The notes below the pieces were generated by a model. The model searched no databases and had not been told where the DNA came from. It saw only the letters and a program-made list of their open reading frames with translations. Below are positions 42,997 through 45,642 of a stretch of DNA of 64,000 nucleotides, piece by piece; the stretch's first letter is position 1, and each line of letters begins with the position of its first letter. Source of the stretch: Picosynechococcus sp. PCC 7117. Lineage in GTDB: Bacteria; Cyanobacteriota; Cyanobacteriia; Cyanobacteriales; MRBY01. The position numbers and the translations under genes are program-made. The stretch covers positions 806,001-870,000 of the forward strand of contig NZ_CP016477.1 of assembly GCF_001693275.1 (NCBI RefSeq). Reading direction: 5' to 3'.

Positions 42997-43665
42997 ATGG
43001 CGTTAACAAGAATTTTAGAACCGGAAGTGATGGACGATCCCGCCGAGGCGATCGCCTACGATGCGATGGATTTTCGAGCGGTGAATCAAGATTTTGCGGA
43101 TCTCGTGGTTACAACTTACCCCCAAGAAACCGCTTTCGTTTTAGATTTGGGCACAGGGACAGCACAAATTCCGATTTTGTTAGGGCAACAGCGCCCCCAA
43201 TGGCAGATTAAAGGCACCGATTTAGCGCAGTCGATGCTCGCTCTAGGACAAAAAAACGTTGTGGCCGCAGGTTTAACAGCACAAATCGAGTTGGTTTATG
43301 CTGATGCGAAAAATTTGCCCTGGCCCGACCAAAGCTTTGATGTGATTATTTCTAATAGCCTGATTCACCATTTACCTGATCCGTTGCCCTGTTTTCAGGA
43401 AATGGGCCGTCTCCTCAAACCCCAGGGAAAAATTATCGTGCGGGATTTGTTTCGTCCCGATAGCACCGCCACCATTGACCAGATCGTTGCTGCTGCCGAG
43501 GGGCCAGGTTTTGATGCGCGTCAACGGCAATTATTCTGGGATTCGCTCCATGCGGCGTTTACGGTGCCTGAAATTGAGGCGATCGCCACCGAAGCAGGCT
43601 TAACCAAGGCCCAAGTTTATCAATCTTCAGAACGCCATTGGACGCTGATTTTTCCCCAGCCTTAA
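42997..43665 (+). CDS. Class I SAM-dependent methyltransferase
   Basis: A 222-residue methyltransferase with the SAM-binding motif VLDLGTGTAQIPILLG (about 49-65), acidic loop KGTDLAQSMLALGQ, motif II/III LVYADAKNLPWPDQSFDVIISNSLIHHLPDP, and a post-motif helix. The fold is that of the Methyltransf_11/25 group, and the substrate is unknown. No membrane span. It lies 45 bases before the broken zinc-ribbon gene on the same strand. Confidence 0.85.
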   Translation: MALTRILEPEVMDDPAEAIAYDAMDFRAVNQDFADLVVTTYPQETAFVLDLGTGTAQIPILLGQQRPQWQIKGTDLAQSMLALGQKNVVAAGLTAQIELVYADAKNLPWPDQSFDVIISNSLIHHLPDPLPCFQEMGRLLKPQGKIIVRDLFRPDSTATIDQIVAAAEGPGFDARQRQLFWDSLHAAFTVPEIEAIATEAGLTKAQVYQSSERHWTLIFPQP

Positions 43666-43710
43666 CGCCATGCAACAAAGAATAAATTTTTTAGCCTCAG
43701 TTCTGAAGTC

Positions 43711-43890
43711 ATGCGTATTCGAGAGAAAAACTGTGATTATTGCCAAACCATTGCGGCAGTTCGTTACCGAATTCAATATGATGCGAGTGAGCAGTGAGTG
43801 TTGGTTTGCCCTGATTGTCGGCGCGAGTTAGCAACCAATAATCCTAACTATCGCTACGGCGGCACCTGGAAGGCGAAAAAACGTAAATAG
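43711..43890 (+). pseudogene. Small double-CxxC zinc-ribbon gene interrupted by an in-frame TGA
   Basis: From the ATG at 43711 the frame reads MRIREKNCDYCQTIAAVRYR and on to DASEQ, then a TGA at 43795-43797, then continues in the same frame VLVCPDCRRELATNNP to GGTWKAKKRK and a TAG at 43890. The two CxxC pairs fall on either side of the stop, so the zinc site needs both parts. As I recall the cyanobacterial family, the position of the TGA is a Trp (TGG), so one G-to-A change would explain it. It is either a recent pseudogene, a sequence error, or readthrough of UGA. Confidence 0.72.
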
Positions 43891-43965
43891 ACCTTTTCGC
43901 GGTCGGGAATTTTCGATCCTCCCAGCACAATGGGATAATAAATGCCGTGCGTTTCTAGGCAGCCC

Positions 43966-45642
43966 ATGAAATCTCGTTCCTTTTTTGTGTATCTCGGTCT
44001 TCTGGTGGTGCTTCTGCTCTCGGTGGGGCTAGGCAGTTGGTTCGCTATTTTTAAACAGAGTCCCTTACCTTGGTTGCAAGGTGGGGTGGCGCGCAATCCG
44101 GCAGCAGCCTTGTTTGTTCCCCGGCAAGCGCCATTGATGCTTTCGCTAGTGGTGAATCCAGAGAAATTAGCCGCCCTGGGCCTCGTGCAAACCCCTTGGG
44201 GTAAACGGCGGGCGACGCTCACGGAATTACAACAGGTGAAAACAAGTTTACTCAGTGCGACGGGACTGGATTACAGCAAGCAGATTGAACCGTGGCTGGG
44301 GGACGAGTTGAGCTTGGCGGTGACTACTTTAGATGTGGATCGCGATCCGAGTAATGGGGTGCAGCCGGGTTATTTATTGGTGGTAGAAGCACGGGATCAG
44401 GCCTTAGCCAAGGAATTTCTACAGCTTTCTTATACGGAACAGGCGATCGCCCCAGAAGCGGGTTTGACGTTTGATCAATATAAGGGGGTCAATTTAGTCA
44501 TTCCCCAGGCGGACAGCCATCGGTTTGCCAGTGCGATTGTGGGTAATTATGTACTGTTTGCCAACGAAGCAAAGGTGCTACGCAGTGCGATTAATACGGT
44601 GCAGGTGCCAGATTTGAATTTGAGCCATGACCCGCAATATACAGAAGCCCTAGAAACCATTGACCGGAAACATATCGGCGTGATGGTGGCGAATTTACCC
44701 GCCCTCAGCGCTTGGATTGCCAACGATCCGACCCCAGAGGAACCGACCCTCGAACAACGTTTGGCGATCGCCATCGGTCTTCATCCAGAGGGGTTAGTGG
44801 CGGAAACGGCTTTGATTGGGGACACGGAACCTAGCCTGATGCCAGGGGCGACCACGGCACCGACCCATGTCCTCAACTACATTCCCCAGGAGGCGATGTT
44901 TGCCGTGGCTGGGCGAGATTTAAACGCTCTCTGGGGTGAAGCGACTACAGGGTTAAATCCGAAAAGTCCCTTATCCCAGATCTTGCAACAGGCGGTCGCC
45001 GCAATCCAAGATCCCCTCGGCATTGACCTCCCCGAAGATATTTTTGCGTGGATTTCTGGGGAATATGCCCTGGCCCTCGTCCCCGATGCCGAACGCAATG
45101 ATGTGGAATGGCTCTTTGTGGCGGAACGACAACCGGAGGTCAACCTCGATCCCGTCATTGAACACTTTGATAGCTTGGCCCAGGAAAAAGGCTTAAGCGT
45201 CGGGCGTTTACCCTTGGGCGATCGCCGCGTCACCGCCTGGACAGCCATCGATACCCAAGACCAAGATGAGCTGGTACAACTCAATGCCGATGTCCGGGGG
45301 GCGCACCTCAGCGTTGACGAGTACGAACTCTTTGCCACTTCTGTAAAAACCCTCAGCCGGGCGATCCAAGCTAATACCGGGCGATCGCTCCTGAAAAACA
45401 AAGATTTCCAGACCAGCATTGCCCAACTGCCTCCCGAAAACAGCGGCTATCTTTTTGCCGATTGGCGTCAAGGTTCCCAACTGTTCAAAACCCAAGTGCC
45501 GATCCTGCGGGTGGTCGATTATGTGGCCAAACCCTTCTTTAACCATCTCCGCGCCTTTACCCTCACCAGTGCCGGCAGTACCCAAGATATTCGGCGATCA
45601 ACCCTATTTTTCAACCTCTCCCCCAATCGTTTACAAAATTGA
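43966..45642 (+). CDS. DUF3352 family protein
   Basis: A protein of about 558 residues with an N-terminal membrane anchor (FFVYLGLLVVLLLSVGLGSWFAIF) and a long extracytoplasmic part of the DUF3352 type: NPAAALFVPRQAPLMLSLVVNPEKL, the repeated FVLVA-like strands (YLLVVEARDQAL), FASAIVGNYVLFANE, IGVMVANLPALSAWIAN and the end GSTQDIRRSTLFFNLSPNRL. The function is unknown; similar proteins occur in most cyanobacteria. I start at the ATG at 43966, which puts the anchor first; an in-frame ATG at 43942 adds eight residues. Confidence 0.82.
   Translation: MKSRSFFVYLGLLVVLLLSVGLGSWFAIFKQSPLPWLQGGVARNPAAALFVPRQAPLMLSLVVNPEKLAALGLVQTPWGKRRATLTELQQVKTSLLSATGLDYSKQIEPWLGDELSLAVTTLDVDRDPSNGVQPGYLLVVEARDQALAKEFLQLSYTEQAIAPEAGLTFDQYKGVNLVIPQADSHRFASAIVGNYVLFANEAKVLRSAINTVQVPDLNLSHDPQYTEALETIDRKHIGVMVANLPALSAWIANDPTPEEPTLEQRLAIAIGLHPEGLVAETALIGDTEPSLMPGATTAPTHVLNYIPQEAMFAVAGRDLNALWGEATTGLNPKSPLSQILQQAVAAIQDPLGIDLPEDIFAWISGEYALALVPDAERNDVEWLFVAERQPEVNLDPVIEHFDSLAQEKGLSVGRLPLGDRRVTAWTAIDTQDQDELVQLNADVRGAHLSVDEYELFATSVKTLSRAIQANTGRSLLKNKDFQTSIAQLPPENSGYLFADWRQGSQLFKTQVPILRVVDYVAKPFFNHLRAFTLTSAGSTQDIRRSTLFFNLSPNRLQN

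Follow-up and report, generated by a model that had tools for sequence, protein, structure and literature searches.

The interrupted gene lies on the plus strand at positions 43711–43890 of the window, the whole 64,000-nucleotide stretch of the Picosynechococcus sp. PCC 7117 genome that was analysed. It comprises 59 codons and a stop, and translates as MRIREKNCDYCQTIAAVRYRIQYDASEQ, an internal stop, VLVCPDCRRELATNNPNYRYGGTWKAKKRK and the terminal stop. The single internal stop is an in-frame TGA at codon 29 (43795–43797), and apart from it the frame is undamaged. The 5′ half (43711–43797) is a 28-residue open frame that contains the first CxxC pair (C8 and C11) and ends at the TGA, while the 3′ half (43798–43890; 30 codons) begins with a GTG directly behind the TGA and carries C33, C36 and the tail YGGTWKAKKRK, so that the stop falls between the two cysteine pairs. 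The start codon is found 45 bp past the stop of a class I SAM-dependent methyltransferase gene (42997–43665, plus strand), and a gene for a DUF3352 protein (43942–45642, plus strand) follows downstream. Both CxxC pairs are conserved in the alignment of the family, as expected for a small four-cysteine protein of the zinc-ribbon or treble-clef-like kind. Searches against Pfam and NCBIfam assigned it to no family above cut-off, and a sequence search of the PDB returned no significant relative. A structure prediction (mean pLDDT 84) places residue 29 at the start of the second strand, immediately ahead of the second cysteine pair; comparison of the fold gave weak best PDB matches, which include ZZ-type and other zinc domains and none of which reaches E≤0.001.

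An earlier note on this DNA, made from the sequence alone, had observed that the reading frame continues unbroken through 43795–43797 and that both halves look like one conserved protein. Both observations are borne out by the relatives. The read-through frame matches single proteins across the junction; PCC 7003 gives E=4e-31 and the four remaining genomes of the genus give full-length matches of E=3e-29 to 1e-22, and such matches to whole proteins argue that the continuity of the frame is not due to chance. The four cysteines are invariant. In the intact relatives the gene is a single frame, which speaks against the two halves being independent conserved genes. The alignment comprises 42 cyanobacterial and Bacteroidetes sequences, the PCC 7117 row being entered with the TGA as W, and its invariant columns are C8, C11, R20, W29, C33, C36, Y47 and Y49–K54 (YGGTWK). 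Codon 29 specifies Trp in 41 of the 41 aligned relatives from both groups, as the earlier note had suggested for the family, and every one of the five other genomes of the genus reads TGG there (the collections compared comprise one genome per species), which supports the suggested single change from TGG to TGA. According to PMC7205611, PCC 7117 and the strains PCC 7002, 73109 and 8807 have an ANI of about 96.8–97.5% to PCC 11901. The orthologue of PCC 7003 (G002:C1:730201-730377, minus strand) is 83–85% identical to the PCC 7117 frame over 59 residues and shares with it the downstream DUF3352 neighbour, the four cysteines and the YGGTWKAKKRK tail; it differs in having TGG at codon 29 and a GTG start and in retaining the native divergent upstream gene. 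The more distant Bacteroidetes proteins, short, with four cysteines and a YRYGGTWK tail (e.g. L029, L044 and L046), are uninterrupted and about 36–44% identical to the PCC 7117 frame, yet share the pattern CxxC...W...CxxC...NYRYGGTWK with the tryptophan in the same place. In genome G001 the gene occurs twice (L004 and L021; C1 865.5 kb and 885.6 kb), in identical copies about 20 kb apart whose upstream and start sequences agree completely over 1,320 bp; this suggests a recent segmental duplication or a duplication in the assembly.

A search of the PCC 7117 genome (G000) with the gene gave one match, that is, the gene is single copy and has no intact paralogue. PCC 7117 thus has an in-frame stop at a sense position and no second copy, two of the features expected of a nonsense pseudogene. 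A 28-residue product would lose half of the four conserved cysteines, together with the second β strand, the helix and the YGGTWK tail that the family conserves.

The distribution of the gene is patchy, with matches in 140 of the 391 genomes of the order. Furthermore, at least 15 other genomes contain damaged copies only, as found by reading the weak matches individually; many of these genomes belong to one genus and about five other genera are spanned, so that they do not stand for 15 independent events. The damaged copies are frameshifted (G219, G292, G109, G166 and G104), have missing 3′ ends or insertions (G278, G330, G059, G369, G356 and G233) or are other fragments (G375, G367, G234 and G381). 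Decayed homologues such as those in G104 (L155), G234 (L156), G219 (L150) and G292 (L151) are interrupted like the PCC 7117 gene but have decayed further, having frameshifts or lost 3′ ends. The copies in G104 and G234 have a TAG at the same Trp codon, 29, at which PCC 7117 has its TGA. Homologues that also end at this position would, by the earlier note, have spoken against its reading: only these two have a stop there, and both bear additional damage, and together these features point to a stop at the Trp29 codon as a recurrent mode of decay. In G355 and G344, a TAG initially considered a lesion is just a few residues short of the C-terminus and was rejected as the natural end of those genes. 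Two interruptions lie at other points of the frame. In the homologue from G233 (L050/L153; G233:C176), a short insertion that includes an in-frame stop separates the second CxxC pair from the YRYGGTWK tail, and a homologue in a Flavobacteriales MAG (L031, 1501–1656) has an in-frame TGA within the first CxxC pair (CE, stop, C), which is either a lesion or a MAG error. Overall, the pattern of presence and damage suggests that members of the order can do without the gene.

The region upstream of the gene has been rearranged. Homology to PCC 7003 starts at window position 43712, one base into the start codon, which matches 730.38 kb in PCC 7003, where the gene occupies 730.2–730.4 kb on the opposite strand, and continues downstream at about 90% identity. 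The methyltransferase side, by contrast, aligns up to window position 43690 with 848.5–851.05 kb of PCC 7003, where about 120 kb separates the methyltransferase gene from the zinc-ribbon gene, placing the breakpoint at 43691–43711. The PCC 7003 flank upstream of the gene is found at G000:C1 728,344-729,758, and at the reciprocal junction (G000:C1 728344-728351) it abuts sequence matching 851.85 kb of PCC 7003, with an overlap of about 8 bp (GTTAAAGA). The two genomes thus differ by an inversion of about 121 kb, one end of which lies within about 21 bp of the zinc-ribbon start codon. The PCC 7003 type of flank is common to G003, G004 and G005, indicating that the PCC 7117 arrangement is the derived one; DUF3352, which follows the gene in PCC 7003 and G001 as well, is the ancestral downstream neighbour, and the methyltransferase is a new upstream one. 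A search of G000 for the native leader of about 83 bp gave nothing beyond matches of 21–23 bp, and the approximately 800 bp lying beyond the methyltransferase in PCC 7003, which by eye hold a thioredoxin-like reading frame, had no match in G000. A search for a sigma-70-like promoter ahead of the gene, in itself weak evidence, found no match. Clustering of neighbours revealed no gene kept beside the family across phyla.

Comparison of PCC 7117 with PCC 7003 gave Ka 0.10 and Ks 0.54 for the whole gene, and Ka 0.12 and Ks 0.77 for the segment past the TGA. Nonsynonymous changes are below the neutral expectation (Fisher p of about 0.001 past the TGA and 0.0001 overall, from rounded counts and few changes). 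Both halves have thus evolved under constraint during most of the time since the split from PCC 7003, which argues that the lesion is recent. Nevertheless, the gene diverges faster than its DUF3352 neighbour (Ka 0.009), and the PCC 7003 orthologue is altered at otherwise conserved sites (K6R, Q22R and R48C); these features may reflect weak constraint in this clade. The otherwise intact frame and the past constraint beyond the TGA count against a pseudogene, and continued expression by readthrough would be expected to leave such constraint too.

Considering these data together, we regard the zinc-ribbon gene of PCC 7117, whose intact form encodes a small and dispensable protein, as a nonsense pseudogene of recent origin or, at the least, as an allele with severe loss of function, a reading with a probability of roughly 80%. 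Loss of the gene is favoured over recoding because the inversion took away its native 5′ flank and because the gene is patchy and repeatedly decaying. We infer that the inversion of about 121 kb and the loss of the leader of about 83 bp came first, or about simultaneously with the stop; loss of the leader would have cut expression and relaxed selection, after which the TGA could have become fixed. RF2, which is encoded in G000, would terminate translation at the TGA, and full-length protein would be made at most in traces, wherever tRNA-Trp misreads the UGA at background level. A causal link from the inversion to the stop, and this order of events, are likewise an interpretation of the arrangement.

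An error of sequencing or assembly would mean that the true codon is TGG and that the protein is made normally. A difference of one base in an otherwise intact frame, with a constrained 3′ half, is what such an error would produce. However, the difference is a substitution rather than an indel, the assembly is nearly closed (3,432,101 bases in 6 contigs, estimated to be 99.99% complete), and this gene has independently lost its 5′ flank as well, which adds to the plausibility of a true lesion; we consider an error improbable.

Near-cognate misreading of UGA would insert Trp, which is precisely the residue missing here, and the 3′ half was constrained, as expected if tRNA-Trp misreads this UGA usefully and yields a low level of full-length protein. 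The earlier note had listed readthrough among its possibilities, but as a dedicated mechanism it finds no support in the decoding machinery of this genome. In G000 we found 44 tRNA matches, and ARAGORN called all 42 that lie on the chromosome. These calls include a single tRNA-Trp, with the anticodon CCA, and no tRNA with a UCA anticodon; the two remaining matches, tRNA-like and located on a plasmid, received no call. UGA reassigned to or suppressed as Trp would be indicated by a UCA-anticodon tRNA, which is absent among the called tRNAs, or by the loss of RF2, which is present. Moreover, no match in a search of G000 for tRNA-Sec reached the gathering score, the weaker matches being ordinary tRNAs where checked. 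Furthermore, TGA is absent from this position in all other genomes of the genus, and the TAG at codon 29 in two lineages, both further damaged, is inexplicable by misreading of UGA by tRNA-Trp. Functional readthrough is thus quite improbable. Similarly improbable is a reading in which the UGA is tolerated because near-cognate misreading restores the family residue and supplies a low dose of intact protein.

The plasmid matches merit description in their own right. Two or three tRNA-like elements stand in a row on the minus strand of a 264,782-bp plasmid (G000:C6 88146-88495; L112). They have inserts of 45–50 nt in the anticodon arm and score 44.7 and 37 bits against RF00005; ARAGORN calls none of them, and partial matches to Y RNA-like (YrlA) RNA overlap them.

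Two separate peptides, which would arise if ribosomes stopped at the TGA, reinitiated at the adjoining GTG (43798) and produced halves that form one zinc site, seem very unlikely. The GTG does follow the TGA directly, and termination–reinitiation at overlapping stop/start pairs is known in bacteria (PMC6728339). However, TGAGTG and TGGGTG (TGRGTG) occur in the window no more often than chance predicts, the TGA is one base from the TGG of the relatives, so that the GTG looks incidental, and no homologue was found as two clean genes, the other split copies being frameshifted or truncated. Finally, although an in-frame UGA within a cysteine-rich protein could suggest selenocysteine, the aligned residue is Trp and never Cys in all relatives and no tRNA-Sec reaches the gathering score, by which this reading is effectively refuted.

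For annotation, the gene in PCC 7117 merits the label of a probable pseudogene, and the finding has little importance otherwise. It does provide a clear example of an inversion breakpoint that stripped the 5′ flank from a gene also bearing a stop codon. As a by-product, the analysis delineates a small uncharacterised family of cyanobacteria and Bacteroidetes with an invariant core of tryptophan and cysteines, which has been lost and broken time and again within the order.
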